Shown here: positions 1 through 13,542 of the stretch, in pieces
Layout: each line of letters opens with the position of its first letter
Position numbering within the stretch: position 1 is the first letter of the stretch
Source: a virus
Reading direction: 5' to 3' (one strand)
Virus record (IMG/VR): IMGVR_UViG_3300003635_000008
Span: 1 to 39,864 of that record
DNA length: 39,864 nt
Notes under the pieces: model-generated
What the model was told of the DNA's origin: nothing
The model's database searches: none
What the model saw: only the letters and a program-made list of their open reading frames with translations
Position numbers and translations under genes: made by a program

Positions 1-15
1 TACAGTAGAGGGGAG

Positions 16-40
16 GCATACGTATAAGGCTTTCGAAAAT
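16..40 (-). promoter_or_regulatory. Promoter of a leftward gene beyond the window edge
   Basis: On the minus strand this reads CGAAAGCCTTATACGTATGCC, nearly identical to the promoters at 1186-1206 and 2252-2272, each of which precedes a small leftward gene by about 30-45 bases. The gene it serves would start at or before position 1. Confidence 0.6.
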
Positions 41-64
41 CGGAGGCGATTTGCCTGAACCCAT

Positions 65-118
65 ACCTTTATGTGTGATAAAAAATCGCCCGGGCCGAGG
101 TTTATCCCATATAAGGCT
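65..118. repeat. CCCGGG-centred interrupted palindrome, copy 1
   Basis: The two arms (TTTATGTGTGATAAA on plus, TTATATGGGATAAA on minus) flank a GCCCGGGC core. It lies directly downstream of the leftward gene ending at 126, so it could act as a terminator hairpin or as a two-fold symmetric operator with a TATA-like arm on each strand. Confidence 0.75.
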
Positions 119-125
119 TACGGTT

Positions 126-233
126 CTACAATAGCCAGATTATCTGGCCGAGGAGTAGTACGAGTAGAAAGAGTACAACGTACATAAATACGAAGTACTC
201 AAGCACCGACAAATCTGTAAATGGGTTGAACAT
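126..233 (-). CDS. 35-aa single-pass membrane microprotein
   Basis: Starts MFNPFTDLSVLEYF and continues with an almost wholly hydrophobic stretch (about residues 13-35, rich in Val, Leu and Phe) that would span a membrane once. The start is supported by a GGTGAT ribosome binding site nine bases upstream, which lies inside the end of the preceding gene, so translation is probably coupled to the zinc microprotein at 236-352. It is the last gene of its unit: palindrome copy 1 follows the TAG stop within about ten bases. The function is unknown; small hydrophobic viral proteins can be membrane anchors or holin-like, but nothing here decides. Confidence 0.6.
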   Translation of the reverse strand: MFNPFTDLSVLEYFVFMYVVLFLLVLLLGQIIWLL

Positions 234-235
234 AG

Positions 236-352
236 TCAGCTCATCACCTTGCCCACCGCTCGCCTGATAGTCGTGTCAGGGAAGCACTGGTCACAGTGGG
301 GGTTCGGTTCTCCGTCGAGCGTTGCGTGTCGAGCGCACATATCTTCTGCCAT
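236..352 (-). CDS. 38-aa zinc-binding microprotein
   Basis: The product has a CxxH motif near residues 6-9 and a CDQC motif near residues 21-24, enough to coordinate one zinc ion, with a basic C-terminal tail. The start is the ATG at 352-350. A minus-strand TATA box (TTATACC, 377-383) lies about 27 bases upstream, the spacing expected for a leaderless haloarchaeal transcript. The stop TGA is followed within two bases by the start of the membrane microprotein at 233, so the two are probably translated together. There is no recognisable family; single zinc knuckles of this size usually contact nucleic acid or protein partners, and which applies here is unknown. Confidence 0.6.
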   Translation of the reverse strand: MAEDMCARHATLDGEPNPHCDQCFPDTTIRRAVGKVMS

Positions 353-371
353 ATTTAGTATGAGGGGTGGG

Positions 372-386
372 ACTGGTATAAGTCTA
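372..386 (-). promoter_or_regulatory. TATA box of the 352-126 unit
   Basis: Minus-strand TCGATAGACTTATACC gives a TTATA element centred about 27 bases before the ATG at 352, implying a leaderless mRNA. Confidence 0.5.
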
Positions 387-476
387 TCGATGTTCTTCTA
401 CGCAGGATACTGTACAGTAATTCAACTCATCACCGCACCAGACACACTCTCTCGTTTCAACCCGACGATTCGACAT
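384..476 (-). CDS. 30-aa zinc-binding microprotein
   Basis: Contains ECVWCGDELNYCTVSC, that is C-x2-C-x6-C-x3-C, a complete four-cysteine zinc site in a 30-residue protein. The ATG at 476-474 is chosen because a GGTGAG ribosome binding site sits about eight bases upstream; an in-frame ATG at 503-501 would give 39 residues but lacks such a site. It lies about 40 bases downstream of the gene ending at 516 and is probably co-transcribed with it. The TAG stop overlaps the promoter of the next unit. Family and function are not recognised. Confidence 0.55.
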   Translation of the reverse strand: MSNRRVETRECVWCGDELNYCTVSCVEEHR

Positions 477-515
477 TGATGGAAACTCACCTTGTCTGTT
501 CATACTAACACCCAC

Positions 516-740
516 TCACGTAAGGACGTTCTCCTCTGTATTCTCGTACAGGTCTTCCTTATGATAGAAGGCCGTCTCTGTTTCGCCAGTATAGAAGTCC
601 TCGACGGCGATTTCGTAAGACTCAGATTCGGGGCGAGCGTTGCCAGTGTATCGGCCAACAGCATAGCCTACTCTGCTATCAGGGTCGTATATCAATACGC
701 TGTCACCAAAGCCGGTGATGCTTGTCTCAGGTCTGAACAT
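516..740 (-). CDS. 74-aa uncharacterised protein
   Basis: The product (MFRPETSITGFGDSVLIYD...) is acidic, has no cysteines and contains alternating hydrophobic residues suggestive of a small beta-rich fold. The start at 740 is preferred over an ATG eight codons upstream because a TTAAGT element (763-768) lies about 26 bases before it, which fits leaderless transcription. It is one of the few genes in this array without a zinc motif. It probably heads a unit with the 30-aa zinc protein. Function unknown. Confidence 0.6.
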   Translation of the reverse strand: MFRPETSITGFGDSVLIYDPDSRVGYAVGRYTGNARPESESYEIAVEDFYTGETETAFYHKEDLYENTEENVLT

Positions 741-761
741 ACTTACCCTTCGCACCATACC

Positions 762-776
762 CACTTAACTCTGTCG
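762..776 (-). promoter_or_regulatory. Promoter of the 740-384 unit
   Basis: Minus-strand GGCGACAGAGTTAAGTGG matches in form the element at 2524-2545 (CGACAGCCTTAAGTGG). The TTAAGT box is spaced for transcription starting at the ATG at 740. Confidence 0.45.
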
Positions 777-781
777 CCGAA

Positions 782-833
782 GGGTTTATGTATGATAAAA
801 TTGCCCGGGCCGAAATTCATCACATATAAGGCT
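782..833. repeat. CCCGGG-centred interrupted palindrome, copy 2
   Basis: TTTATGTATGATAAAATT on plus and TTATATGTGATGAATTTC on minus flank GCCCGGGC. It begins about seven bases downstream of the stop codon of the gene at 840-944, and the promoter of the next unit follows. Confidence 0.8.
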
Positions 834-839
834 TGTGCC

Positions 840-944
840 TTAGTACGAGCCGCGCATCCAGCACTGCTCGCACACACGCACGCCGCTATCTGTCAACAGA
901 TAGGCACGCCCGCTGTCCGTAGTGCCACAGTCTACGCACCTCAT
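840..944 (-). CDS. 34-aa zinc-binding microprotein
   Basis: Sequence begins MRCVDCGTTDSGRAYL and ends VCEQCWMRGSY: two CxxC pairs separated by 18 residues, the minimal layout of a zinc ribbon. The ATG overlaps the TGA of the 75-aa zinc protein upstream (ATGA), so the two are translationally coupled. Palindrome copy 2 follows the stop directly. At 34 codons it falls below usual gene-calling limits, but the intact paired cysteines, the overlap and the context support it. Function unknown. Confidence 0.65.
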   Translation of the reverse strand: MRCVDCGTTDSGRAYLLTDSGVRVCEQCWMRGSY

Positions 945-1168
945 AGGCTCACCTCGGTGCGCCCGTTAATCGCCGCACGGGAGGGGCGTGTCTCTCGGTC
1001 GAGGCACGACCGGCAGAGGACGAAGCCGTCCCTGTTGCGCGAGTCCCCGAACGCTCGGGAGAGGTGCGTCTGGCGGCGAGCGAGGTCTGCCTGATGGGGC
1101 GAGACTCCCTTGCCGCAGTCAATACAGCAGTCGTCAGCGCGGTAGCGCGAGGGTGTGTTTCCCTTCAT
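941..1168 (-). CDS. 75-aa zinc-binding protein
   Basis: Begins MKGNTPSRYRADDCC and has CIDC at about residues 15-18 and CRSC at about 52-55, with a strongly basic stretch between (RRQTHLSRAFGDSRNR), consistent with a nucleic-acid-binding zinc finger. The ATG at 1168 is chosen because the TATA box at 1193-1197 is 27 bases upstream, so the mRNA would be leaderless; the longer reading frame extends through the promoter and palindrome copy 3 and is rejected. The stop overlaps the start of the 34-aa zinc protein. No family recognised. Confidence 0.7.
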   Translation of the reverse strand: MKGNTPSRYRADDCCIDCGKGVSPHQADLARRQTHLSRAFGDSRNRDGFVLCRSCLDRETRPSRAAINGRTEVSL

Positions 1169-1185
1169 ACTATAGTAGAAGGGTG

Positions 1186-1206
1186 GCATAGGTATAAGGC
1201 TTTCGT
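1186..1206 (-). promoter_or_regulatory. Promoter of the 1168-840 unit
   Basis: Minus strand GAAAGCCTTATACCTATGCC, a near copy of the elements at 16-40 and 2252-2272. CGAAAG resembles a BRE and TTATACC is the TATA box. Confidence 0.65.
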
Positions 1207-1223
1207 TTCTCTGCTGCGCCGAT

Positions 1224-1276
1224 ACCTTTATGTATGATAAAATTTGCCCGGGCCGAAATTTATCACATATAAAGCT
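1224..1276. repeat. CCCGGG-centred interrupted palindrome, copy 3
   Basis: The best-preserved copy: arms TTTATGTATGATAAAATTT (plus) and TTTATATGTGATAAATTTC (minus) around GCCCGGGC. Its minus-strand edge overlaps the TAG stop of the gene at 1275-1442. Confidence 0.85.
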
Positions 1277-1442
1277 ACTGGTCGATGAGGCAGTCAAGGC
1301 ATATCTCTGAACCAACAGTACCACACTCTTTACAGTTTGGAAACTCGCTGTCAGGGAGCGTATATGTTAGTCCACAGGCAGGACACTTACCCATCGGATA
1401 ACTGTTAGGCTCTACGTCTATGTTACAATCGTAGCACTTCAT
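1275..1442 (-). CDS. 55-aa double zinc-ribbon protein
   Basis: Four CxxC pairs occur in 55 residues: CYDC (3-6), CPAC (20-23), CKEC (37-40) and CLDC (48-51), enough for two zinc sites in a double zinc-ribbon layout. Such proteins are commonly nucleic-acid or protein adaptors, but no specific family is recognised. The ATG overlaps the TGA of the upstream 70-aa zinc protein (ATGA), so the pair is coupled. The TAG stop lies on the edge of palindrome copy 3. Confidence 0.7.
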   Translation of the reverse strand: MKCYDCNIDVEPNSYPMGKCPACGLTYTLPDSEFPNCKECGTVGSEICLDCLIDQ

Positions 1443-1651
1443 TGTTCTGGATACCAGTGGTCGTTATTCCACGAGTTACAGTATATCTTACAGTCGTTAC
1501 AACCGGGATACCAATGCGTCTCACCGAGGCTCTGGTGAGTCTTTCGCACAATATCCTGCCAGCCAACGTCTTTCCCACACTCGGGGCAGACACAGCCTTC
1601 GGCTTTTGACTCAGCAATACGACGCGAGGGTGATTTCTCATCTTCCTTCAT
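1439..1651 (-). CDS. 70-aa zinc-binding protein
   Basis: Begins MKEDEKSPSRRIAESK; CVCPEC at about residues 20-25 and CNDCKIYC at about 51-58 supply the cysteines for a zinc site. The intervening segment is amphipathic and contains His and Trp. A minus-strand TTTTATTAT box at about 1674-1683 lies 27 bases upstream of the ATG, indicating a leaderless mRNA. It is the first gene of a two-gene unit with the double zinc-ribbon protein. An alternative frame over the same bases (1423-1641) has no cysteine pattern and is discarded. Function unknown. Confidence 0.65.
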   Translation of the reverse strand: MKEDEKSPSRRIAESKAEGCVCPECGKDVGWQDIVRKTHQSLGETHWYPGCNDCKIYCNSWNNDHWYPEQ

Positions 1652-1671
1652 ACTACTACATACACACCGGG

Positions 1672-1686
1672 GGATAATAAAACCTT
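1672..1686 (-). promoter_or_regulatory. TATA box of the 1651-1275 unit
   Basis: Minus-strand GCAAGGTTTTATTATCCCCC; the AT-rich box is centred 27 bases upstream of the ATG at 1651. Confidence 0.5.
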
Positions 1687-1696
1687 GCTATTCCCA

Positions 1697-1750
1697 ACCT
1701 TTATGTATGATAAAATTTGCCCGGGCCAAAATTTATCACATATAAACCTT
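1697..1750. repeat. CCCGGG-centred interrupted palindrome, copy 4
   Basis: TTTATGTATGATAAAATTT and the matching TTTATATGTGATAAATTTT arm flank GCCCGGGC. It is about 17 bases downstream of the stop of the 150-aa zinc protein. Confidence 0.85.
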
Positions 1751-1766
1751 GTGCTTGCGGCAGGTG

Positions 1767-2219
1767 TTACCCTGTCGGAGTTGTGGCTTTCTTCTTACCA
1801 CATTTCTCACACTTGTATTTAGTAGCGACACGAGCGTTGTGTTTCTGGTTGGGATTCAGACACTTGTAATCGTGGCTGTCACCATCCTTACACGTAGCGT
1901 CAGCGTTCGCACACTCGCCGCATTTGCGGCCAGCGAATCCGGTAGACACGAAGGTTCCGATGGGACGAAACGTATCGCACTTCTTACAGAAGCGCATCTC
2001 GTTTTCTACCATCCACTCGGTAACAGCCTTGACCTTACCGTAGGGCGTATCTGCCTCTACGTCCATATCGAAGGCTTCGATAGCGTGCGTGGCATATGCC
2101 GCACCGCCGTTAATCCAAGCCGAAGGCTCGGAAGCACCGTGGCTTGAATCAGGGCCACGAACCTGCTGTACTGTGATTTCAATACCGTCAATCTCGTATT
2201 CTTCTTTTTGGTAAGTCAT
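1767..2219 (-). CDS. 150-aa protein with tandem C-terminal zinc fingers
   Basis: The acidic N-terminal half (about residues 1-70, MTYQKEEYEIDGIEIT...) resembles no family I know. The C-terminal half carries CKKC (about 78-81), CGEC (about 100-103), a spaced cysteine pair (C-x9-C, about 110 and 120) and CEKC (about 137-140), so two zinc sites are likely. The pattern KCDTFRPIGTFVSTGF followed by CGEC recalls stand-alone zinc fingers linked to HNH or recombination proteins, but no nuclease residues are visible. This is the largest gene of the array and one of those with a clear leader: a GGAG site lies nine bases before the ATG and the TATA box about 42 bases before it. Confidence 0.75.
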   Translation of the reverse strand: MTYQKEEYEIDGIEITVQQVRGPDSSHGASEPSAWINGGAAYATHAIEAFDMDVEADTPYGKVKAVTEWMVENEMRFCKKCDTFRPIGTFVSTGFAGRKCGECANADATCKDGDSHDYKCLNPNQKHNARVATKYKCEKCGKKKATTPTG

Positions 2220-2251
2220 TGTCTCTTACTCCTTACTGTAGTAGAAGGGTG

Positions 2252-2272
2252 GCATACGTATAAGGCTTTCGT
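2252..2272 (-). promoter_or_regulatory. Promoter of the 150-aa zinc protein
   Basis: Minus-strand CGAAAGCCTTATACGTATGCC. The predicted start is about 15 bases upstream of the ATG at 2219, leaving room for the GGAG ribosome binding site at 2229-2232. Confidence 0.65.
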
Positions 2273-2300
2273 TTTGAGCAGGCGAATTGCCTCATACCAA

Positions 2301-2355
2301 ACCTTTATGTATGATAAAATCTGCCCGGGGCCTCAGGTTATTATATATAAAGGTT
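2301..2355. repeat. CCCGGG-centred interrupted palindrome, copy 5
   Basis: Plus arm TTTATGTATGATAAAATCT and minus arm TTTATATATAATAACCTG around GCCCGGGG. The arms are less symmetric than in copies 3 and 4. It is immediately downstream of the gene at 2361-2483. Confidence 0.75.
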
Positions 2356-2360
2356 TCCCT

Positions 2361-2483
2361 TCACGGGAAAGCGAAGCCGCAATCTTCACAGCGGAACTTG
2401 TAACTCGATTGACGAGCGTTGTCGCCACCGCAATCAGGGCAACCGTTTCGGTCCATCTTGTTAGCGTAAACGTAATCTGACAT
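2361..2483 (-). CDS. 40-aa zinc-ribbon microprotein
   Basis: CPDC (residues 15-18) and CEDC (32-35) with the sequence NARQSSYKFRCEDCGF between and after them give a textbook zinc-ribbon fold, with a basic loop as in nucleic-acid-binding ribbons. A perfect GGAGGTGA ribosome binding site at 2490-2497 lies seven bases before the ATG, the strongest translation signal in the array. The promoter at 2524-2545 gives a leader of about 20 bases. It forms a unit on its own, ended by palindrome copy 5. Function unknown. Confidence 0.75.
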   Translation of the reverse strand: MSDYVYANKMDRNGCPDCGGDNARQSSYKFRCEDCGFAFP

Positions 2484-2523
2484 AGTATCTCACCTCCTTG
2501 TGTATGTATTACTCTATTGGCTA

Positions 2524-2545
2524 TCCACTTAAGGCTGTCGTTTTG
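2524..2545 (-). promoter_or_regulatory. Promoter of the 40-aa zinc-ribbon gene
   Basis: Minus-strand CGACAGCCTTAAGTGG, related to the element at 762-776. It overlaps the stop region of the next gene upstream (2548). Confidence 0.45.
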
Positions 2546-2547
2546 CC

Positions 2548-2694
2548 TCAGTCGAGGCTCACCTTACCGTTACACTCAACACAGATACCCTCTTTGCGTG
2601 AGCGGTGCGCGGTTGTATCCACGCCACCACCGCACGGGCAAGTGATAGGGCAGTTAACAGTCAATTCCTCAGCGGAAGTGTTTGCTTCTTTCAT
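2548..2694 (-). CDS. 48-aa zinc-binding microprotein
   Basis: CPITCPC (about 15-21) and CVEC (38-41) with an intervening basic stretch (HRSRKE) make a probable single zinc finger. Translation starts at the ATG at 2694. The upstream sequence GGGGGTACTATACTGTAGT is shared almost exactly with the promoter region of the gene at 3225, and an AT-rich box at about 2719-2727 is spaced for a leaderless message. No palindrome copy separates it from the next gene downstream at 2483. Function unknown. Confidence 0.65.
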   Translation of the reverse strand: MKEANTSAEELTVNCPITCPCGGGVDTTAHRSRKEGICVECNGKVSLD

Positions 2695-2759
2695 ACTACA
2701 GTATAGTACCCCCACCCTCTTAGTATGTGGTGTACCCCACCTCCCCTACCCCTACCCCA

Positions 2760-2804
2760 ACCTTTATATGTGATAGTGGCAGCCCGGGGCCTCACTTATA
2801 AAGG
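2760..2804. repeat. CCCGGG-centred interrupted palindrome, copy 6 (divergent)
   Basis: CCTTTATATGTGATA on plus and a short CTTTATAAGTGAGG arm on minus flank GCCCGGGG. It is shorter and less AT-rich than copies 2-5 but has the same place, about 15 bases after the stop of the gene at 2819. Confidence 0.6.
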
Positions 2805-2818
2805 GGAGGGGTATCCCC

Positions 2819-3076
2819 CTATACGGCAGGCTTCTGCCACTCCCCTGATAGTACCCTCTCCATACCGAAGGCTATAAGGGTGAACAGTATGAGGAAGGTC
2901 ATCCCAAGGGAGTACCCCCCTACTGCCATCCATACCCCATCCTCTGCCAATACCCCGGCAGGCAGTAGGGCAAAGAAGGCAGTCCCATACAGGTAATCCC
3001 ACTCAGGATTTACCTTCTGGCATACCCATACCCCTACCGTCAGGGCAAGGGGTACACCCAATAGGGTGACACTCAT
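2819..3076 (-). CDS. 85-aa three-helix membrane protein
   Basis: Three hydrophobic segments are visible at about residues 3-20 (SVTLLGVPLALTVGVWV), 31-45 (GTAFFALLPAGVLA) and 55-71 (SLGMTFLILFTLIAFG), so it should be an integral membrane protein. Its ATG overlaps the stop of the 50-aa zinc protein (ATGA), so the two are coupled: a zinc microprotein and a membrane protein made together, as at 352-126. The DNA of this stretch is unusually rich in GGGG/CCCC runs compared with the neighbours. Function unknown. Confidence 0.65.
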   Translation of the reverse strand: MSVTLLGVPLALTVGVWVCQKVNPEWDYLYGTAFFALLPAGVLAEDGVWMAVGGYSLGMTFLILFTLIAFGMERVLSGEWQKPAV

Positions 3077-3225
3077 AGGAGGGACTCCCCTCCCCAGTCA
3101 CACCCGAACCTACCGCATACCTCTCGGGGAGGCTCCCCTCCGAGGTGTACAAGGCCTGTACTCTCCCCACAGTCGGGGCAAGGGCTACTCTGGAACGTTA
3201 CCGTGGTGGTGGTATCTTCTTCCAT
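3073..3225 (-). CDS. 50-aa zinc-binding microprotein
   Basis: Starts MEEDTTTTVTFQSSPC; CPDC (16-19) and CGRFGC (37-42) form a probable four-cysteine zinc site. A minus-strand GTTATAAGG box at about 3251-3257 is 28 bases before the ATG, indicating a leaderless mRNA. It is coupled to the membrane protein downstream. Function unknown. Confidence 0.65.
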   Translation of the reverse strand: MEEDTTTTVTFQSSPCPDCGESTGLVHLGGEPPREVCGRFGCDWGGESLL

Positions 3226-3248
3226 ACTACAGTATAGTACCCCCACCC

Positions 3249-3260
3249 CCTTATAACCCT
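3249..3260 (-). promoter_or_regulatory. TATA box of the 3225-2819 unit
   Basis: Minus-strand AGGGTTATAAGGGGGTGG, with the TATA centre 27-28 bases upstream of the ATG at 3225. Confidence 0.55.
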
Positions 3261-3290
3261 ACCCCGTTGGCAATACCTACCCCTACCCCA

Positions 3291-3335
3291 ACCTTTATGT
3301 AGGGGTAATCTCCCCGGGGGATACCCCCAGTAGGG
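3291..3335. repeat. Degenerate CCCGGG repeat, copy 7
   Basis: Only the plus-strand arm (ACCTTTATGTAGGGGTAA) and a CCCCGGGG core are kept; the second arm is replaced by CCCC-rich sequence. There is no clear leftward gene directly upstream of it. Confidence 0.4.
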
Positions 3336-3425
3336 ATAGCCCCTCCCCCCAGTAGGGTAGTGTCTGATAGGAGGGGGTGGTACTCCCCAGTGGGGTGATA
3401 TGGGTGGGGGTTCCCCCCAGTGGGG
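3324..3425. repeat. CCCCAGTGGGG and related palindromes
   Basis: CCCCAGTGGGG occurs at 3385-3395 and again at 3415-3425, and two related CCCCAGTAGGG elements lie at about 3326-3336 and 3347-3357. This gives four phased copies in about 100 bases, with no convincing gene on either strand. Confidence 0.6.
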
Positions 3426-3429
3426 TAAC

Positions 3430-3625
3430 TGATTTCAAAGCCGATTTCAAAAACCGAAAAACGAGCGATTGGCCGATTTGAAGCACCCGGCCAAATTACT
3501 GATATGGCGATTCAACAGGTGACGATTTGAGAAGGTCGATTTTCCGATATTTGTCGATATTTTGAATCGCTGATATGCCGATTTGTGATTCACCCGAATA
3601 AGCCGATTATTCGGTGGTCGATTCT
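3430..3625. repeat. CGATT-type pentamer array (iteron-like)
   Basis: About fourteen occurrences of (C/T)GATTT, CGATTC, CGATATTT or TGATATG fall within 200 bases, nearly all in the same orientation and spaced about 10-20 bases apart. The stretch is AT-richer than its surroundings and has no gene. Repeats of this kind serve as replication-origin iterons or arrayed protein-binding sites; which applies is not decided here. Confidence 0.55.
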
Positions 3626-3632
3626 AAGCCGT

Positions 3633-3731
3633 CTAAGCCCCGCTGAGAACGATGACGTAAGCCACGAGTCCGAAGACCCAAAGCGAAACGCCAATCGCCA
3701 CAGCGAGCATCTGAGCGGTTTCTGGTCGCAT
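3633..3731 (-). CDS. 32-aa single-pass membrane microprotein
   Basis: MRPETAQM is followed by a continuous hydrophobic segment (about residues 8-30, AVAIGVSLWVFGLVAYVIVL) that spans a membrane once. The frame is open for another 34 codons upstream, but those are polar, so the ATG at 3731 is preferred. No strong ribosome binding site is visible. It lies about 60 bases downstream of the nuclease-like gene on the same strand. Function unknown; it could also be non-coding. Confidence 0.4.
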   Translation of the reverse strand: MRPETAQMLAVAIGVSLWVFGLVAYVIVLSGA

Positions 3732-3793
3732 TTGTGTAGTGTGTCGGTGGTCGTTCAATCGTAAGCCTATGCTGTAAGCCGAAGCCGCCCGGC

Positions 3794-4336
3794 TTATTCC
3801 AGCCGAGTCCAGCCGTCTCCCGGCTTCACCCAAATCAGGTGGTCGGCTTCTTTTGCGTCCCAGTCGTACCGTTTCGAGTCAGCCGTTTTGATTTGGTACG
3901 TTGCTTCGTCCGTCCGAATGTCGATTCCCGCGTTTTCGTCGCCGTCGTGCGCTTCTTTCACCGTTTCGCCCCGAGCCTCAAGCACACCCTCAAAGTATCG
4001 TTCGCCAGCCGCCCCGAGTCCGAAGCGGGCAGCGACCGTCTTATAAACCCCCACAATCTGGAAGGGTGCGAGTCCGGCCATCTCGGGGTTGCGGTCGTAC
4101 ATTTCTTGAACCCCGTATTCAGCCACCCTCGCAACGCCCTCAGCGACCGTCTCAGCCGCCTTAATCTCCGAAACCGCGTTTTCGGGGACAAGGTGCTTGT
4201 CCCAATTCTGGCTCATCCCGTGAGTCGGGTCGGCCAGCGGGTTGCCGTATGCCACATCCTCTTCCGCACAGGCCTCGCGTTCCGCAATGTTGAGCGCATC
4301 GTTCGTCACGTCGTTCACGTCGGGTGCTTCTTTCAT
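3794..4336 (-). CDS. Possible PD-(D/E)XK-type nuclease, 180 aa
   Basis: The C-terminal third contains GIDIRTDEATYQIKTADSKR (about residues 133-152): an aspartate in a GID motif followed by an E-x-x-Y-Q-I-K strand is the usual look of a PD-(D/E)XK active site (D, E/Q, K), as in restriction-like and repair nucleases. The N-terminal part is acidic and helical (MKEAPDVNDVTNDALNIAER...). Start: the ATG at 4336 has a TTTAAT box 30 bases upstream on the minus strand; an ATG 14 codons earlier (4378) is the alternative. The codons are rich in GCC and CGG unlike the neighbouring genes, hinting at separate acquisition. The assignment rests on one motif. Confidence 0.45.
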   Translation of the reverse strand: MKEAPDVNDVTNDALNIAEREACAEEDVAYGNPLADPTHGMSQNWDKHLVPENAVSEIKAAETVAEGVARVAEYGVQEMYDRNPEMAGLAPFQIVGVYKTVAARFGLGAAGERYFEGVLEARGETVKEAHDGDENAGIDIRTDEATYQIKTADSKRYDWDAKEADHLIWVKPGDGWTRLE

Positions 4337-4510
4337 CACAATATCTCGTTTCGGGGGGTTAGCATTAAAGGTTCGCATTTGCCAGATTGAGTAAACAAGT
4401 GGTCGCTAATCGCCATACGGGGTGGGGTTGAGAGTGTTATGTGAATCTGATAACTCTCTATTACCCAGTTGTATTACCCGGTAATAGCCCCGGGTAGCTG
4501 TGGGGGTATC

Positions 4511-4520
4511 TACTTATAAA
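4511..4520 (+). promoter_or_regulatory. TATA box of the candidate small RNA
   Basis: TACTTATAAAGCC is centred about 27 bases upstream of 4543. No gene begins there, but a hairpin does. Confidence 0.5.
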
Positions 4521-4540
4521 GCCCCCCGCGTATCAGCAGT

Positions 4541-4676
4541 AGAGAGCCTGAGAGTACAATATCCTGTTATGCGCGGCTCTCTGTACAGAAATCGGGCGTC
4601 TTAGAGATTCACACACCCTTCAGATTATCATACCCCACTTAAAAGATTGAGGGTCGCGTGGCCCCGATTTTTTTTT
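4541..4676 (+). ncRNA. Candidate small RNA
   Basis: The predicted transcript would begin at the 5' arm of an inverted repeat (AGAGAGCC at 4541-4548, GGCTCTCT at 4575-4582) and run to an intrinsic-type terminator (stem GGGTC/GGCCC with a GCGT loop at 4651-4664, then nine T at 4668-4676), giving an RNA of about 135 bases. The only reading frame inside it is ten codons. This is inferred from promoter, fold and terminator; no family is recognised. Confidence 0.4.
4651..4676 (+). terminator. Intrinsic-type terminator
   Basis: A 5-bp GC stem with a four-base loop, followed within four bases by nine consecutive T residues, the longest T run noticed in the window. Confidence 0.6.
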
Positions 4677-4809
4677 AAATCAACGAAAATCGCCCGGAAT
4701 TAAGCTTGGCCAGCCCAAGAGAAAAAATATATCTCATATATTGTGTGCCATAATGCGGCCTCATCCAAAATTTTTTCGCGCCCCAAATATAACTGGCTTA
4801 ATGCGCTAT

Positions 4810-4826
4810 CGAAACCTTTATGTATG
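4810..4826 (+). promoter_or_regulatory. Rightward promoter P1
   Basis: CGAAACCTTTATGTATG. The box is the same as the plus-strand arm of the CCCGGG repeats. Transcription is expected at about 4840, giving a leader of about 165 bases before the TFB-like gene. Confidence 0.5.
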
Positions 4827-4875
4827 TGAAGGCCCACAGTTAGTACAAGGGGTAGCAGAGGTGAGAGTCTCTCTG

Positions 4876-4908
4876 ATGGGAGTTTTAGTATTATATACAG
4901 AGACATAA
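4876..4908 (+). CDS. Possible 10-codon leader peptide
   Basis: GAGGTGA (4858-4864) is followed 11 bases later by ATG and a short frame encoding MGVLVLYTET. It uses two TTA leucine codons, which are rare in haloarchaeal genes. It lies in the leader made from P1. This could be chance; the good ribosome binding site and the rare codons are the only support. Confidence 0.2.
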   Translation: MGVLVLYTET

Positions 4909-4966
4909 TTCGATTGTTGCAGTGGAAAGCTATGCAGAGGAGTGACTGCCTGCAACGAGCGGGCGC

Positions 4967-4985
4967 ACCGAAAGCTTTTTATATG
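4967..4985 (+). promoter_or_regulatory. Promoter of the TFB-like gene
   Basis: CCGAAAGCTTTTTATATG. The TATA centre lies about 27 bases before the ATG at 5008, so the mRNA should be leaderless. The CCGAAAG prefix is shared with the late promoters at 15367, 33069 and 37855. Confidence 0.65.
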
Positions 4986-5007
4986 TGGCTGCATACAGTT
5001 AACATAG

Positions 5008-5583
5008 ATGCAATTTGCTGCGACAGCTCTCGACCCATTTGACCGAGGAAACGGTAATGGGTCCCGAAGCGTGACAGACGACTGGTTGGACGAACAGTCT
5101 ATCTTTGATAATGAGTGGGGCAGCGCGGCTGCCACGACATTTAATCCACAAGATACGGATGCCCAAGGCCACCCCATTCCAGAACATAAGCAAGAAAAGT
5201 TCGAGACATTGTATGAACTCCATAATGGGAAGATGGAGAAGTCTCGGAAAAGTGACATTCGCACCTCACATATAGAGAACGACGCCCGAACCTTTATGTC
5301 AGTGCTGGAAATGCCTGACCCACAACGCGAGCGAGTGATGCTGATTCTCGACGAACTCGACATTTCCTCGAACAATTTTGGCGGGCGGCGATATGAAAAA
5401 ATTATTCTGGCGATTTGTACACTGGTGGCGGATGAGGCGCTCGGGAAACAACCGAACCCCTCAGTTGAAGATAGACTCTTTCTCACGGACGAATTTCGGG
5501 ACCTGATGGATTGTACGAAAACAAGTTCTACTGATGTTCGCAAACTGCGGAGAGACATCAGAAACAAATCAGACCACTTCTGA
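5008..5583 (+). CDS. TFB-like (TFIIB family) protein lacking the zinc ribbon
   Basis: Residues 45-80 (NPQDTDAQGHPIPEHKQEKF...) follow the B-reader/linker pattern of archaeal transcription factor B (DAYGN-L-S-x2-K). Residues 90-185 fit one cyclin repeat: an arginine/glutamate-rich first helix after an LEMPDPQRERV segment, the GRRYEKIILAICTLVADEAL helix matching GRSIEGVATSALYAAAR, and a final SSTDVRKLRRDIRNK helix. The N-terminal zinc ribbon, which recruits RNA polymerase, is absent, and only one cyclin repeat of the usual two is present. It may be a promoter-specific initiation factor or a competitor of host TFB. The leaderless start at 5008 follows from the TATA spacing. The family assignment is from pattern, not from a search. 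Confidence 0.55.
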   Translation: MQFAATALDPFDRGNGNGSRSVTDDWLDEQSIFDNEWGSAAATTFNPQDTDAQGHPIPEHKQEKFETLYELHNGKMEKSRKSDIRTSHIENDARTFMSVLEMPDPQRERVMLILDELDISSNNFGGRRYEKIILAICTLVADEALGKQPNPSVEDRLFLTDEFRDLMDCTKTSSTDVRKLRRDIRNKSDHF

Positions 5584-5591
5584 CAGAATAG

Positions 5592-5617
5592 CCACCCCCA
5601 CTTAAAGAAACAGGGGT
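5592..5617 (+). terminator. Weak hairpin after the TFB-like gene
   Basis: CCCC and GGGG separated by about 14 AT-rich bases, just after the stop codon. It has no T run, and a TTATAAAA element follows directly at 5622-5629. Confidence 0.25.
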
Positions 5618-5653
5618 CCACTTATAAAAGAACCAGTTCTCGGTCCTTCAGGG

Positions 5654-5688
5654 TATAAAAGGGCCGACGCATATAGTATATAAATGAC
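5654..5688 (+). promoter_or_regulatory. Promoter of the packaging operon; twin of 15385-15421
   Basis: TATAAAA at 5654-5660 is followed by a 28-base stretch (5661-5688) that recurs exactly at 15394-15421, including the ATG 27 bases from the TATA centre. At the second site that ATG opens the protease gene; here it opens a six-codon frame. Confidence 0.7.
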
Positions 5689-5704
5689 TACGACAAACGA
5701 GTGA
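5684..5704 (+). CDS. Six-codon mini-ORF (MTTTNE)
   Basis: The leaderless ATG of the duplicated promoter is kept, but the frame ends at TGA (5702-5704), nine bases before the small terminase start. It may be a remnant of the duplication or a translated leader that passes ribosomes to the next gene. No function can be assigned. Confidence 0.25.
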   Translation: MTTTNE

Positions 5705-5713
5705 GCCACTACT

Positions 5714-6337
5714 ATGTCACACAAGGATAAGACGGACGGCTACTGTAATGCGAAAATCCGCGAGCATCGCGTTCCTGACGAGTGGGACCAAGATGTCGCC
5801 TATTGTGCGAATCGCGCAGGATTCCGCACAGACCACTTTGACGAGGGTCGATGCTATCTTCACGGCGGTTGCTCCAAATCGGCCAACGAGGGCAACAACT
5901 ACGCGGAGAAGCACGGTATGTATGCCGACCGACAAAACTACTACCAGAACCGCTCGGCAGAGGAACAGCAGTGGATTGATGCAGTAGTGGAGTCGCTCCT
6001 CGATGATGCACCATTCTCGCACGACAATTTCGCCAAGCTCCAGATGGTGCGAAACATCGCAATCGATATGCACAAGATGCAGGACGCCAACACCTTCATC
6101 GACCAAGCTGGCATTGTCAACAAGGACAAGACTGTTGGCTATTCGCAGGATGGGACGCCCATCAAGGAAGACCAAGAGAATCCGATTAACGTCACTTACG
6201 ACCGTCTGAATCGGACGATGACGCGCCAGCTTAAGGAGCTTGGGATTCTCGACGACCCTGAATCGCAGAACGCTGAGGCAAATCAGAACATCGCAAACGA
6301 ACTGGCCGCACTCCGGTCAGCGAGAGACAATGATTGA
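5714..6337 (+). CDS. Terminase small subunit-like protein
   Basis: The N-terminal region carries YCNAKI, AYCANRAG and RCYLHGGCSKSANEGNNYAEKHGMY (about residues 10-70): cysteine/histidine pairs followed by the G-N-x-N-A-x-K-H-G motif typical of small terminase subunits, which bind the packaging site on viral DNA and load the large subunit. The middle is helical and the C-terminus (about 165-207) is a charged helix expected to oligomerise or contact TerL. It lies two genes upstream of TerL, and its stop overlaps the start of the next gene. The 207-residue length suits the family. The zinc-like N-terminus could reflect an extra DNA-binding module. Confidence 0.65.
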   Translation: MSHKDKTDGYCNAKIREHRVPDEWDQDVAYCANRAGFRTDHFDEGRCYLHGGCSKSANEGNNYAEKHGMYADRQNYYQNRSAEEQQWIDAVVESLLDDAPFSHDNFAKLQMVRNIAIDMHKMQDANTFIDQAGIVNKDKTVGYSQDGTPIKEDQENPINVTYDRLNRTMTRQLKELGILDDPESQNAEANQNIANELAALRSARDND

Positions 6338-6734
6338 GGACTTCTCCGGCGGCTACTATCGAGCAGAGATGACTGTTCAGCCTTTGGAGAGCGGCCCCTC
6401 CATCGAGCGCGGCCTCTATGACCTGATTAATCGGAAGATTTATACGAACACCGATGCTCCGGTCACGATGCGCCTGACTCTTGATGGAGGGCCGAGGTTC
6501 GCGCCTGAAACAGAGAACGCGATGCCCACTGACGTAATCGGGATGCCGACCGAGATGTTGGACGATGTGGGCATCCATCCCTCCGCAGAGGACATCAGTG
6601 TCTTCATTCTGAAGCCGAAGCACGCTTACCTTTTTCATCAGGTCGATGACCTTGACGAAGAGGATTTGTACCAGAATGCTGACACGTCCTTGACAGAGGA
6701 AGACCGAAGCTTTTTCAATCTAAAAGGTGAATAG
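6330..6734 (+). CDS. 134-aa protein between the terminase subunits
   Basis: Begins MIEDFSGGYYRAEMTV, overlapping the previous gene by eight bases, and ends with a GGTGA ribosome binding site for TerL inside its last codons. It is acidic with alternating hydrophobic strands in the first two thirds (MRLTLDGGPRF, ISVFILKPKHAYLF), which suggests a small beta barrel or sandwich. No catalytic motif or family is recognised. The tight coupling to both terminase genes argues for a role in packaging or head assembly (inference). Confidence 0.6.
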   Translation: MIEDFSGGYYRAEMTVQPLESGPSIERGLYDLINRKIYTNTDAPVTMRLTLDGGPRFAPETENAMPTDVIGMPTEMLDDVGIHPSAEDISVFILKPKHAYLFHQVDDLDEEDLYQNADTSLTEEDRSFFNLKGE

Positions 6735-6736
6735 TT

Positions 6737-8050
6737 ATGGTCAATGCAGAACGACTTCTTGAAGAGCCGAGCTACTTCGTCAAGCACTACATTGGCGAGG
6801 AGCCGTTCGACTATCAAGAGGACTTTATGGACCATAAGTCCGACCGTAAGGCCTTCGTTTCTGGCCGACGTGTCGGTAAGTCTCGGACGGCCTCGTGGCT
6901 CGCACTCTGGAAAGCGATTACGTATGAGGGCGCAGAGGTACTCCTGACGGCCAAGGCGCAGCGCCAGTCGATGGAGCTGTTCAATCAGATTCAGAAGGAG
7001 ATTCGCACCTCTGACATCAGCGAGGACCAGTGGGGCATCGTCCGAGAGACGCGCACTGAGATTAATTTCGACAACGGTTCACGGATTCTCGCACTCCCTG
7101 TCGGGCGAGACGGGGCGAACATTCGTGGATACGGTGGGCGTAACAATATGATTATCGTGGACGAGGCGGCCTTCATTCCAGACGCCGTATTCCAAGAGGT
7201 TCTCTCGCCGATGATGGCTGTTGGTGGCGGTCAGTTCATTCTACTCTCGACGCCGTTCGGGAAGAAAGGCTTCCTGTACGAGCGATTCAACGACCAAGAA
7301 TGGTACACGATGCAGGTTCCGACCTCTGCCAACCCGATGATTGCCGACGACTTCATCGACGAGCAGCGCAAGAATCTGACGAACACACAGTTCAAGCAGG
7401 AGATTCTCGGCCAGTTCGTCGAAAGCGCAGACAGCTTCTTCACACGAGAGGAGCTAATGAACTGCGCGCAGGAGTCGGTCGAGCAAGAGAGCAGCCTCAC
7501 GTTCCTCGGCGTAGACCTTGCATCGTCGGGACAGGACGAGTCGGTTTATGTATGTGTCGATGATGAAGGAAACATCTTCCACATCGAGCATACGTCGGAC
7601 AAGCCGATGACAGACGCGATGGGGCGAATCCGTGAGCTTGACACGTACTACGATTTCAATAAGGTTGTTATCGACAGTACGAGCCTCGGCCAAGGTGTTG
7701 TTGACCAAGTGGAGGAATCGCTTGGTAACAAGGTCGAGGGCTTCAAGTTTACGAACGAGAAGAAGCAATCGCTGTACAATACACTGAAGAACGAGCTTCA
7801 GCAAGGGAAGCTATCGTTCGAGTACGTGCCGGGTAAGAACGACAAGGCTGGTAACAAGATGGTGAACCAGTGTCTCGAACTTGAGAAGTCGTTCACCAGT
7901 ACCGGCAAGATGCGTATTGAACATCCCCCGAACGGCCACGACGACTTCTCTGATGCGTTCGCGCTCGCAATTTGGGCCAAGAGTCAGAAGAAGTTCGCTC
8001 GCTCGGACAAGGCGAGTATGCGACCATTTAATCTTGGCAGTCTAAAGTGA
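6737..8050 (+). CDS. terL: Terminase large subunit
   Basis: This is the packaging motor ATPase and genome-cutting nuclease. Walker A is GRRVGKS (residues 43-49) and Walker B is MIIVDEA (138-144), with the coupling STPFG motif at 171-175. The RNase H-like nuclease domain shows its acidic residues in LGVDLAS (D260), VVIDST (D313) and DDFSDAF (D402-D406). The length, 437 residues, is ordinary for a tailed-virus TerL. The protein sits on the portal vertex during packaging and works with the small subunit two genes upstream. GGTGA five bases before the ATG decides the start. Confidence 0.95.
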   Translation: MVNAERLLEEPSYFVKHYIGEEPFDYQEDFMDHKSDRKAFVSGRRVGKSRTASWLALWKAITYEGAEVLLTAKAQRQSMELFNQIQKEIRTSDISEDQWGIVRETRTEINFDNGSRILALPVGRDGANIRGYGGRNNMIIVDEAAFIPDAVFQEVLSPMMAVGGGQFILLSTPFGKKGFLYERFNDQEWYTMQVPTSANPMIADDFIDEQRKNLTNTQFKQEILGQFVESADSFFTREELMNCAQESVEQESSLTFLGVDLASSGQDESVYVCVDDEGNIFHIEHTSDKPMTDAMGRIRELDTYYDFNKVVIDSTSLGQGVVDQVEESLGNKVEGFKFTNEKKQSLYNTLKNELQQGKLSFEYVPGKNDKAGNKMVNQCLELEKSFTSTGKMRIEHPPNGHDDFSDAFALAIWAKSQKKFARSDKASMRPFNLGSLK

Positions 8051-8057
8051 TATAATT

Positions 8058-8417
8058 ATGACAAGAGCAAAAGTACTCGAAGGAGAACATCTCAAGACGG
8101 GGGACCAAGAACCCGACCTGTTGGTACAGCTTATCAAAGATAATCGCTCGCCGAAGGACTTAAGTAGTGTCGGCTCTATCGAGGTCCATCTCAAGCAAGC
8201 AGACAGCAACGAGACACTCGTAGAAGACGACACGGCTGGCAATGTCACCATAGAGGCCGCCACTGACGGCAAGGTTTCGTATGCGTGGCAGACTGCCGAT
8301 ACGGAGACGGCGGCCACACTCGTCGGAGAGTTCGTCGTCGTTGACTCGCAGGGCGAGCAGGCAACGTATCCGAACGATGGGACCTTTAAAGTCTTCGTCG
8401 AGGAGGGCATCGCATAA
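8058..8417 (+). CDS. BppU/Ig-like beta-sandwich virion protein
   Basis: The sequence fits a beta-sandwich common in phage proteins: GDQEPDLLVQL, then DLSSVGSIEVHLKQ, then GKVSYAWQTADTETAATLVGEF and a closing YPNDGTFKVFV strand (about residues 14-115). This pattern is known from the N-terminal domain of BppU-type baseplate proteins and from stand-alone small virion proteins. Here it stands between TerL and the portal, with its stop overlapping the portal start (ATAATG), so a head or neck decoration role is more likely than a baseplate one. The domain is clear, the role inferred. Confidence 0.65.
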   Translation: MTRAKVLEGEHLKTGDQEPDLLVQLIKDNRSPKDLSSVGSIEVHLKQADSNETLVEDDTAGNVTIEAATDGKVSYAWQTADTETAATLVGEFVVVDSQGEQATYPNDGTFKVFVEEGIA

Positions 8418-10768
8418 TGGCACGACAAGGATTCTCGCTTGATGCAATCCGTGAGGGTGTCGGCAAGCGAACAGAAGAGCTTAATCCTGACGCAGAGCCA
8501 CACTCTGTCGAGGACGACCGGCCTGACCGGACACGCCCCTTCTCGTTCGAACACTCCGATTACGACAGGACTGAAGCGCCAAAGGACGAGATGCGGAAGT
8601 ACTGGCGTCAGTTCGAGACGACGCCCATCGTCCGTAAGCCGATTACCTCTTTTGCATCGAGAGTGACCGAGCCGGGCTACTATCTCGAAGCGCGAAACCT
8701 CGAACAAGACGAAATCGAGGACCTCGGTAAATGGCTCAAGAAGTCTTCGATTATCGAAGGGCAGCCGGGCAAGGATTTCCGCCTGCTCGCAAAGAAGGCC
8801 ATCGTTCAGCGTGAGGTGCGCGGGACGGCCCTCATCGAGAAAGCGCCGCACAAGAATAATCGTGACCAAGTGGCTGGCCTGAAGCTCATCAATCCAGAAG
8901 TGTGTGAAGCTGTCACTCGGCCACAGCAGAATATTCTCGTCGCGCCAGATGATGGCGACCGATTCCCCGATGCGCCTGACGCCGAAACTGGTGGCAAGGC
9001 CGCGTGGCTACAGGACGTTATCGAAGCGCGAGAAGTTGACTGGGGCGTGAGCGACCGCATCCGTCGCGGGATGGACGACGCTGACGATGACCTGAAAATC
9101 GGCTTCCGCCGAGACGAAATCATCCCACTGACGCGAGACGCTGACGTGGGCGAAGTGTTCGGAACCTCTCGTATCGAGGCAGTGAGTCCTCGTATCGAGG
9201 GAATCAAGCAGAAGCTTGACGACAACGACCAAGCAATTTCGAGCAAGGCCTACCCACTCTGGCTCTTTATGTTCGGCGACCCTGAGACGACCGGCGTGTG
9301 GGACTCTGACGACATCGACGAGTTTATGTCGGCCCACGAGATGGAGAACTTCCACCCCGGTATGAAACAGGGAGTTCGCGGAGACGTGTCCGTCGAGACA
9401 ATCTCGGGCGAAGTGTCGGACATCGCGGAATACCTGAACTTCGACATTCAGTGGATTATGTCGAGTATGCCGATGCCGATGTTCACGCTCGGCTCCTTCT
9501 CGGAGCGGGGCGCATCGGTCGGCCAAGTGGCAGGTGTCGCGCAACAGCAGAACGTCAATCGACAGATTAAAGAGGCTCGCCGCGAACTCGAAGAAGAGTT
9601 CAGCCCTGTCATTCAGGAAGTGGCGAAGCAGCAGGGAATCGACGAAGAGCGGGCCGAAACGATTCGCCTCAGACTCGGCAATCCGGGCGACCCTGACCCT
9701 GAGGTCCGCCGCTCGCAGCAGACCATCCGCTACGTCTCTGACGCGAAGGGGGGCCAAGGCGGTGTCCAACAGCAGCAACAGCAGAGACAGCAACAACAGC
9801 GACAAGAGGGCGTAGAAGAGCCTGACGTGACCAGCAATCCGAACACTGTTGGTAAGGGCGAGACGCCTTCCTCGGTCGATAATCCGACCCCGGACCAGCC
9901 AATCGCTGGCGTTGACGAAGACGCGAATCCCTTCGTAGATATTCAGGTTGATAAGGGAACGACCACTGAGGAAATCGATAGTGAGTACGCGAACGTGTGG
10001 GATGCGGCCCGCTCGGGCGCAGAGCTATCCGATGACCAGAATCAGCAGGCGCTCGCCAACAAGGTCTTCCGCGTGCTACGAGATGTACGCGAGGCGACAC
10101 TCGACAGTGTGAGCGAGTCGTATGGGAGCAACCCACAGTTCGCCGCAGTCGAGTTCGAGAATGTTGCGAATACGCAGCTCAACAACTCTGTTCGTGAAGC
10201 GGGCCTCCGGCGTGAGTCGAAAGATGTCTTCGCCGAACTGGTTCGAGGTGTCGAGCGAGATTACGGTAATACTCACTCGGCCTTCAGTCAAAATCAGAAC
10301 GTTCGCTTCTACGCACAGACGTTCGAGAATGCGGTCAGAGACGCCGCTGAGGAGATGCTTCGTCGCGCAAGGGTATTGGTCCGAGATGGCGTTGTAAACG
10401 GAGAGCAGTGGCCTCACGTCCGTCAGAGAGTCGAGGACACATACTCCGATGCCGAGCTACAGAATCGGGCGAATCTCATCGCACAGATGGAGACGAAGCG
10501 CGCACAGGAGACGACCAAGTTGCAGCAGTTCGAGGCAGCCGACAACATCGTTGGAGTGCGTGTCAACAATCCTAACGCGAGTGCGCGTGTGACGGAACAG
10601 CTACACGGAGCGACGGCCCTGTTCGAGCAAGGTGAAATCGATAATCAGCTTGCCTCGCAGGTGCGAGCAGATGCGCTCCGAGAAGGGTTCGACCCACTGC
10701 CGAGAACGCCGCCGTATCACTTCAACGATACGACGACGCTCGAACCCGTGTACAGAGACGAAGTTTAG
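8417..10768 (+). CDS. Portal protein fused to a MuF-like domain
   Basis: Residues about 45-450 are a portal: an RKYWRQFETTPIVRKPITSFAS entry, the KLINPEVCEAV and IIPLTRDADVGEVFGTSRIEAV strands, a long wing-stem helix and the MPMPMFTLGSFSERGASVG segment, all typical of archaeal and phage portal rings. A glutamine-rich linker (about 448-466) and an acidic stretch lead to a C-terminal helical part. Its end (LIAQMETKRAQETTKLQQFEA... then RTPPYHFNDTTTLEP) reads like a MuF minor head protein, but without the usual cysteines. At 783 residues it is well above a normal portal (450-550). MuF and portal are usually separate neighbours, so this is an apparent fusion. Confidence 0.85.
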   Translation: MARQGFSLDAIREGVGKRTEELNPDAEPHSVEDDRPDRTRPFSFEHSDYDRTEAPKDEMRKYWRQFETTPIVRKPITSFASRVTEPGYYLEARNLEQDEIEDLGKWLKKSSIIEGQPGKDFRLLAKKAIVQREVRGTALIEKAPHKNNRDQVAGLKLINPEVCEAVTRPQQNILVAPDDGDRFPDAPDAETGGKAAWLQDVIEAREVDWGVSDRIRRGMDDADDDLKIGFRRDEIIPLTRDADVGEVFGTSRIEAVSPRIEGIKQKLDDNDQAISSKAYPLWLFMFGDPETTGVWDSDDIDEFMSAHEMENFHPGMKQGVRGDVSVETISGEVSDIAEYLNFDIQWIMSSMPMPMFTLGSFSERGASVGQVAGVAQQQNVNRQIKEARRELEEEFSPVIQEVAKQQGIDEERAETIRLRLGNPGDPDPEVRRSQQTIRYVSDAKGGQGGVQQQQQQRQQQQRQEGVEEPDVTSNPNTVGKGETPSSVDNPTPDQPIAGVDEDANPFVDIQVDKGTTTEEIDSEYANVWDAARSGAELSDDQNQQALANKVFRVLRDVREATLDSVSESYGSNPQFAAVEFENVANTQLNNSVREAGLRRESKDVFAELVRGVERDYGNTHSAFSQNQNVRFYAQTFENAVRDAAEEMLRRARVLVRDGVVNGEQWPHVRQRVEDTYSDAELQNRANLIAQMETKRAQETTKLQQFEAADNIVGVRVNNPNASARVTEQLHGATALFEQGEIDNQLASQVRADALREGFDPLPRTPPYHFNDTTTLEPVYRDEV

Positions 10769-10769
10769 G

Positions 10770-10787
10770 CCAAAGATTTATGTATCC
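10770..10787 (+). promoter_or_regulatory. Putative late promoter
   Basis: CCAAAGATTTATGTATCC, related to the CCGAAAG-TTTAWGTA promoters, directly after the portal stop and about 85 bases before the next gene. Confidence 0.45.
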
Positions 10788-10796
10788 ACCGATGAC

Positions 10797-10829
10797 GGCG
10801 AGTGAGGCCAACAACATAAACAACTCGCC
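10797..10829 (+). terminator. Hairpin after the portal gene
   Basis: GGCGAGT (10797-10803) pairs with ACTCGCC (10823-10829) across a 19-base AT-rich loop. There is no T run. It could end the packaging transcript or be an RNA element of the next leader. Confidence 0.4.
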
Positions 10830-10863
10830 CGAGGCCCTTGCGATACACCTATAGGTGATAACA

Positions 10864-11190
10864 ATGGCAGAAGACGTAGACAACGACTACTACTACGACG
10901 AAGGTACAGTTAACGAACAAATGGACGACTACGCGGTTTACGAGAAGGACGGGCAGGTTCACGTTCATTACAAGCCGGACGACAATGTAATGAAGGTGGA
11001 CGACCTCGCTCACATCTTTGGCGCACAGCGTGGTCAGTTCACTGAGGCAGAGCTTGCAGAAGGAGAGGTTGCGCTCTACATCTCTAACGGAGACGGTGCA
11101 GGAGCGGCTGGCGACCTCGTGATGGCAACTGGTGGCTCCTCGACCGACGAGGGTACAAACGTCACTGAGTCTGTCGTCAACGCAGCGTAA
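10864..11190 (+). CDS. 108-aa acidic protein
   Basis: MAEDVDNDYYYDEGTV...: a tyrosine- and aspartate-rich N-terminus, a central VHVHYKPDDNVMKVDDLAHIFG segment and a Gly/Ala/Ser/Thr-rich tail. The ATG at 10864 has GGTGAT four bases upstream; a GTG three codons earlier is unlikely. It is flanked by hairpins on both sides, so it may be transcribed alone and abundantly. It is probably a small virion or head-assembly protein, but no family is recognised. Confidence 0.6.
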   Translation: MAEDVDNDYYYDEGTVNEQMDDYAVYEKDGQVHVHYKPDDNVMKVDDLAHIFGAQRGQFTEAELAEGEVALYISNGDGAGAAGDLVMATGGSSTDEGTNVTESVVNAA

Positions 11191-11204
11191 ATAGCCTCAT
11201 CACC

Positions 11205-11239
11205 CGAGGGGTCTTGAGTCTTACGATTCTTACCCCTCG
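11205..11239 (+). terminator. Hairpin after the 108-aa gene
   Basis: CGAGGGGT (11205-11212) and ACCCCTCG (11232-11239) form a perfect 8-bp stem with a 19-base loop. A second small inverted repeat, GGTGG/CCACC, follows at about 11243-11261, just before the next start. Confidence 0.5.
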
Positions 11240-11266
11240 AAAGGTGGTTAGGGGTGTCCACCAACT

Positions 11267-12037: not shown

Positions 12038-12086
12038 GAAATAGTACTAAAATTAAAACAAACGTAAAATAATATTCTGGAAAATT

Positions 12087-13067: not shown

Positions 13068-13070
13068 ATT

Positions 13071-13409: not shown

Positions 13410-13412
13410 TGG

Positions 13413-13475: not shown

Positions 13476-13500
13476 AAGCCTTGTACTATGTTATGACTTC

Positions 13501-13521: not shown

Positions 13522-13542
13522 AAGTATTGGAGATTTGATATA

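Follow-up and report, generated by a model that had tools for sequence, protein, structure and literature searches.

An array of very small genes with paired cysteines and recurrent inverted repeats beside the terminase genes of a tailed haloarchaeal virus

The window described here (the complete IMG/VR virus record IMGVR_UViG_3300003635_000008, 39,864 bases) codes for a contractile-tailed haloarchaeal virus, in which terminase subunits, portal, capsid, and sheath are recognized. Its left end carries a leftward array of 13 very small genes, most of them with paired cysteines. Nearly every block of this array is closed by an inverted-repeat element of ~53 bp with the core GGCCCGGGC, which precedes the haloarchaeal promoter predicted for the next block. 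In this relative of HGTV-1 (Halomagnusviridae), the array is probably the part nearest the terminase genes of a hypervariable region of accessory genes. Since repeated elements and promoters give the blocks matching flanks, there is good reason to regard them as exchangeable accessory genes that are swapped by homologous recombination, in a region that is probably early. Modular organization and exchange of units had been proposed in an initial annotation of the sequence; they are supported by a near-isogenic pair of contigs, by the architecture of the HGTV-1 array, and by the lost homology of the array as opposed to the kept synteny of the virion genes.

The array and its intergenic element

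All 13 leftward frames of positions 126-3225 are present. Ten of them contain paired Cys or Cys/His sites, as the initial annotation had claimed, and may bind zinc; the other three encode two membrane proteins and one protein without Cys (Table 1). The ATGA overlaps at 941/944, 1439/1442, and 3073/3076 are likewise genuine. These frames are not due to chance. Eight ATG-started open reading frames (ORFs) with at least two C-x2-3-C knuckles lie on the leftward strand of positions 1-3300, whereas 500 dinucleotide shuffles of the same stretch averaged 0.054 and never exceeded 1. The opposite strand of 1-3300 has no such ORF, and elsewhere in the window no more than one occurs per 3.3 kb and strand.

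What the initial annotation overlooked, while having the genes right, is the inverted repeat between the blocks. It occurs in six full copies and one partial copy, and its leftward sequence is close to CTTATATGTGATAAATTTCGGCCCGGGCAAATTTTATCATACATAAAGG. The arms pair better than base shuffles in all seven copies (p 0.001 to 0.018); at a CCCGGG site at 4489, pairing is not above base shuffles (p 0.40). The core of the element is positioned 25-44 nt past the stop codon of its block and 66-107 nt ahead of the next start codon.

Between the core and the start codon, most blocks show a sequence resembling a B recognition element and TATA box (BRE/TATA), mostly 29-37 nt from the ATG. For the genes starting at 2219 and 2483 this distance is 52 nt; the leaders are short and have purine-rich stretches. 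The block E promoter CGAAAGCCTTATAC recurs in near-identical form ahead of block C (2258-2271) and, at 22-35, ahead of the block past the contig end, and the promoter of gene 236-352 overlaps the end of 384-509. Promoter activity is predicted here from the BRE/TATA consensus at the right distance. Each unit had been said to have its own promoter, which fits most blocks but not the second genes of the coupled pairs. In addition, the extent first given (126-3225) does hold the array, but the contig end cuts it, and only part of a longer array is visible. HGTV-1, the closest isolate (72.8% identity of the large terminase subunit, TerL), has a genome of 143.9 kb; the window therefore probably covers only part of a genome, and its left end truncates the array.

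Comparison with a near-isogenic contig and with HGTV-1

The contig IMGVR_UViG_3300003631_000038 (hereafter L002) is near-isogenic to the window. Its alignment to window positions 529-14871 shows seven differences; six cluster in 531-575, and the other 14.3 kb (576-14871) contain a single one. To the left of this, a block of about 470 bp is exchanged. The window block contains a 41-residue Cys protein, a 38-residue Cys protein, and a membrane peptide. The L002 block contains a diverged allele of the 38-residue protein (91% DNA and 87% amino acid identity) with a different promoter, followed by two other Cys peptides (MNCKISR... and MTQTC...), for which no homologues were found. At the left edge, one arm of the inverted repeat still has three differences; from there on, within the repeat, the two sequences agree again, and beyond this breakpoint about 100 bp of identical flank lead to the contig end. 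Both contigs break off at one and the same base, just ahead of the start codon of the next unit. Such a common end would be expected if that unit differed among members of the population; an assembly effect is the alternative.

Assemblers are misled by repeats, and two metagenome contigs with the same end base raise the question of whether the whole difference is an artefact of repeats at contig ends. This is distinctly unlikely. L002 has a coherent operon here, in which one gene is a diverged allele and the promoter is its own; the six substitutions in 531-575 form a transition to the replaced block of the kind seen in natural recombinants; and the alternative block is natural DNA in either case. 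Repeated dyads with a GC core between cassettes, and a breakpoint inside one of them, would also suit sites of a site-specific recombinase, which would make the array an integron-like cassette platform. However, the second breakpoint is away from any element, the dyads vary among HGTV-1 copies beyond a strict site, and no recombinase was recognized among the proteins scanned, most of the virus genome being outside the window. Such a platform is thus very improbable.

HGTV-1 (NC_021328) has a circularly permuted genome with 40 annotated small genes that run leftward over 15.5 kb (128.1-143.6 kb of the record), mostly in one- or two-gene units, and adjoin the terminase genes. The window array is likewise placed beside the terminase genes, in the direction opposite to them. 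Nearly all structural genes tested are homologous to HGTV-1 and in the same order (small terminase subunit TerS, TerL, portal, capsid, sheath, and baseplate), whereas 12 of the 13 array genes lack a clear homologue. The one strong homologue (E 6e-54), belonging to the family of gp073, has a different position in the array; two further array genes give marginal, partial matches (E 0.001 and 0.005). A search with TerL led to the relatives L004-L012, of which L004 and L005 were read; both begin at the array edge and contain no array. Plasmids yielded no homologues.

An inverted repeat and a TATA box are situated between most small-gene units in both viruses, and a gene-proximal promoter sequence (CGAAAG.CTTAATA and variants, ~35 nt from the ATG) is common to them. 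The HGTV-1 motif was reportedly described by Sencilo et al. This TATA-like region with an inverted repeat was likened to the promoter early stem-loops (PeSLs) of phage T4 and proposed to drive shuffling (PMC3950731). A profile search with the HGTV-1 intergenic element gave 27 leftward copies, all within the small-gene array; only a few weaker matches lay directly next to the array, and the remainder of the genome searched (all but record positions 112,001-114,999) gave no significant match. Its core CTCCTCGTG/GCACGAGGAG is unrelated to the core in the window. Because the sequence of the inverted repeat is not shared, the window element is, judged by its sequence, a variant of the HGTV-1-type element and not the same element. 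The annotated GTG starts of M199_gp090, gp067, and gp065 in HGTV-1 (L020 14605-15429, 24138-24431, and 24679-24762) fall inside the inverted-repeat core (GTGGCACGAGGAG); these starts are probably wrong, and the 27-residue gp065 is probably spurious.

At least two knuckles, counted by one rule for both viruses, are found in 9 of the 13 window array genes versus 7 of 40 in HGTV-1 (Fisher p = 0.001). Zinc richness is therefore a property of this stretch and not of the system. Conservation of the cysteines could be checked in three array proteins, those with a diverged homologue. The loss of cysteine pairs in related viruses, named in the initial annotation as grounds for rejecting its claim, is not seen in either gene with homologues in other viruses: all eight Cys are conserved between 1767-2219 and HGTV-1 gp073 (57% identity) and between 1275-1442 and HATV-2 gp072 (49% identity). 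The third protein is that of 236-352, with its paired Cys conserved in the L002 allele. HATV-2 belongs to another virus family, and its gp072 overlaps an unrelated upstream gene by ATGA; by this comparison of sequences, the 55-residue gene has changed partners between viruses.

Nature of the element and proposed exchange

The dyads may be RNA stem-loops, that is, terminators or processing sites at the 3' ends of units, as in the T4 PeSLs. The distance of the cores from the preceding stop codons would suit this role, and several copies fold better than shuffles (z to -3.8 in the window and to -6.6 in HGTV-1). Other copies are no better than shuffles (z -0.3 to -1.3), no long T-run directly follows the stem in the transcribed direction, and variable stem positions in HGTV-1 show no compensatory changes, with paired cells not above expectation. 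An RNA stem-loop was weakened as the main interpretation by this missing compensation and is retained as a minority possibility. Rfam contained no known RNA that matched. Because of the missing compensatory change in HGTV-1 and the mixed RNA foldability in both viruses, the dyad looks more like a DNA site, composed of promoter boxes and the site of a regulator. A dyad scan of 85,000 bacterial and archaeal genomes returned five chance matches, none in haloarchaea, and scans of viral contigs for the window dyad, its promoter, and the HGTV-1 core returned matches only in L002 and HGTV-1 itself.

As a DNA site, the inverted repeat could be purely regulatory—an operator or promoter through which a regulator encoded by the virus switches on the whole array as a single regulon, the variation of the array being ordinary phage gene turnover. 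TATA-like boxes are present in both arms, the absence of compensatory stem changes in HGTV-1 is as for a DNA site with conserved half-sites, and the core differs wholly between the two viruses, as if regulator and site had changed together. A precedent is HF2, whose intergenic repeats, of another kind, were shown to be active promoters (PMC8707807). Nonetheless, one exchange breakpoint is located inside an element, and regulation and exchange are compatible; a purely regulatory role is considered unlikely.

In the reading preferred here, exchange by homologous recombination, each block would be a self-contained transcription cassette consisting of a BRE/TATA promoter near the start codon, between one and four tiny genes, and an inverted repeat. 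The repeated elements and promoters would provide the blocks with equal flanks and, hence, with homology for exchange. Ordinary homologous recombination with co-infecting relatives could then lead to the gain, loss, or replacement of blocks, while the virion genes stay syntenic. The proteins would most likely be made early and may serve as small modules that interact with the machinery of host or virus.

Several observations weigh against this reading. A single exchanged block is seen, with one of its two breakpoints in an element and the other inside 516-740, and both sequences are metagenome assemblies, in which a mis-join near a repeat is possible. The elements of the window and HGTV-1 are scarcely alike (best nhmmer E 0.01), and the block B genes 2548-2694 and 2361-2483 are split by a promoter without an inverted repeat. 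The alternatives partly overlap with the preferred reading, a regulatory or terminator dyad being compatible with exchange, so that their likelihoods are not meant to add up to one.

The timing of the array is suggested by a different repeat. A 38-bp sequence, 95% identical in its two copies (GGGCCGACGCATATAGTATATAAATGAC), is found before TerS (5656-5693) and at the start of the prohead-protease gene (15389-15426), and a close variant occupies the corresponding place in L004 and L005. The repeat resembles a late promoter and would belong to another class than the promoters of the array. The array is therefore probably in another temporal class than the genes with the 38-bp repeat, and likely early by analogy with HF2.

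A more speculative and quite unlikely extension is that the element core is a lineage-specific address read by the virus's own regulator, with recombination in the shared core and promoter flanks recruiting blocks. If so, an incoming microprotein gene would be wired at once into the early regulon of the virus, and the lineages with the GGCCCGGGC and CTCCTCGTG cores would represent one plug-in platform in two versions incompatible with each other.

Array proteins, neighboring features, and known systems

No functional family was matched by the array proteins above its curated cut-off. In 1767-2219, the predicted zinc-bearing region is similar to a portion of a phage HNH family (E 3e-5), and a PADLOC scan, which covers defence and not counter-defence proteins, gave only weak zinc-ribbon matches to one protein. 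A similarity of the 55-residue protein to SPT4 (E 0.017) was not accepted. Two structure models are of low confidence (predicted local distance difference test scores of 60 and 57), and a structure search with the 150-residue protein, the model of which was too poor, gave no match with E below 0.5. From the location and variability of the array, a role of its proteins in host takeover or anti-defence, as initially suggested, is plausible.

Table 1. Features of the small-gene array and of its intergenic elements in the window
Feature	Position	Strand	Remark
50-aa predicted Zn-site protein, first gene of block A	3073-3225	-	putative promoter GTTATAAG 32 nt upstream of ATG
85-aa membrane protein, block A	2819-3076	-	ATGA-coupled to 3073-3225
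48-aa predicted Zn-site protein, block B	2548-2694	-	
40-aa predicted zinc-ribbon protein, second gene of block B	2361-2483	-	own putative promoter but no preceding inverted repeat; Zn_ribbon_8 matched weakly
150-aa protein, predicted C-terminal Zn sites, block C	1767-2219	-	homologue of HGTV-1 M199_gp073, 8/8 Cys conserved
70-aa predicted Zn-site protein, block D	1439-1651	-	
55-aa protein with four CxxC	1275-1442	-	ATGA-coupled to 1439-1651; homologue of HATV-2 gp072, 8/8 Cys conserved
75-aa predicted Zn-site protein, block E	941-1168	-	
34-aa predicted Zn-site protein	840-944	-	ATGA-coupled to 941-1168
74-aa acidic protein without Cys, block F	516-740	-	3' part inside exchanged block
41-aa predicted Zn-site protein	384-509	-	absent from L002
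38-aa predicted Zn-site protein	236-352	-	own putative promoter; L002 allele 87% aa identity, all Cys kept
35-aa membrane peptide	126-233	-	two other Cys peptides in its place in L002
Inverted-repeat element after block F	66-118	-	left breakpoint of exchange inside it
Inverted-repeat element, blocks E/F	782-833	-	
Inverted-repeat element, blocks D/E	1224-1276	-	77% paired
Inverted-repeat element, blocks C/D	1697-1749	-	77% paired
Inverted-repeat element, blocks B/C	2301-2353	-	
Inverted-repeat element, blocks A/B	2758-2808	-	one arm shortened
Partial inverted-repeat element upstream of block A	3288-3320	-	
Putative promoter CGAAAGCCTTATAC before block E	1192-1205	-	37 nt before ATG
Block exchanged between window virus and L002	107-575		about 470 bp

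At the edge between the array and the virion genes, the window contains a very C-rich stretch (2700-3430; CCCCTA/CCCCTACC); the left ends of L004 and L005 have it as well. It is in sequence of this type that contigs of relatives break off, and the stretch could hold a packaging or replication site. Beside the array, a leftward 194-residue protein (3794-4378) shows a PD-(D/E)xK-like stretch (GIDIRTDEATYQIKT, read by eye), and in L004 and L005 its place is taken by a leftward gene that bears little similarity to it. Amid the virion genes, an HNH endonuclease gene (12087-13067) occupies a low-GC stretch (41%); it looks like an inserted homing-type gene, since its HGTV-1 matches lie elsewhere in that genome. 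Following the baseplate J-like gene, a 757-residue protein (35574-37847) consists mostly of imperfect repeats of the YGRGQIDVSYDPNTT... type.

Cassettes of the PeSL type in T4-like phages are said to have been described by Arbiol (2010) and Comeau (2014). By the account of papers that cite these sources, they resemble the window blocks in being dispersed cassettes of a promoter, predicted in the window, and an inverted repeat amid small genes in shuffled regions, with a proposed role in modular shuffling. They differ in that the predicted window promoter is of the archaeal BRE/TATA type and that the window dyad is a doubtful candidate for an RNA terminator. The class I intergenic repeats of HF2 (Haloferacalesvirus) are also repeated AT-rich halovirus promoters, of early-middle genes; however, they have no general inverted repeat (IR4.5 has one), their positions are conserved among related viruses, and they are not tied to a dense exchangeable array. 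The HF1-group viruses encode many small CxxC proteins (PMC7230728). Together with haloarchaeal zinc-finger microproteins, these share with the window proteins the very small size, the CxxC pairs, and a mostly unknown function; unlike here, exchangeable units were not reported for them, and no sequence homology to the window proteins was shown.

The HGTV-1 architecture with its shuffling hypothesis and the occurrence of small CxxC proteins in haloviruses are already published, and the second lineage with an unrelated core, its zinc-rich content, and the near-isogenic pair are new. That the HGTV-1 motif serves in shuffling had been suggested on the basis of one genome; the second lineage, alike in layout but with another core, and the near-isogenic pair make this testable. 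In addition, the array supplies a defined collection of tiny accessory proteins, many of them below gene-calling limits, that can be screened for effects on archaeal hosts.

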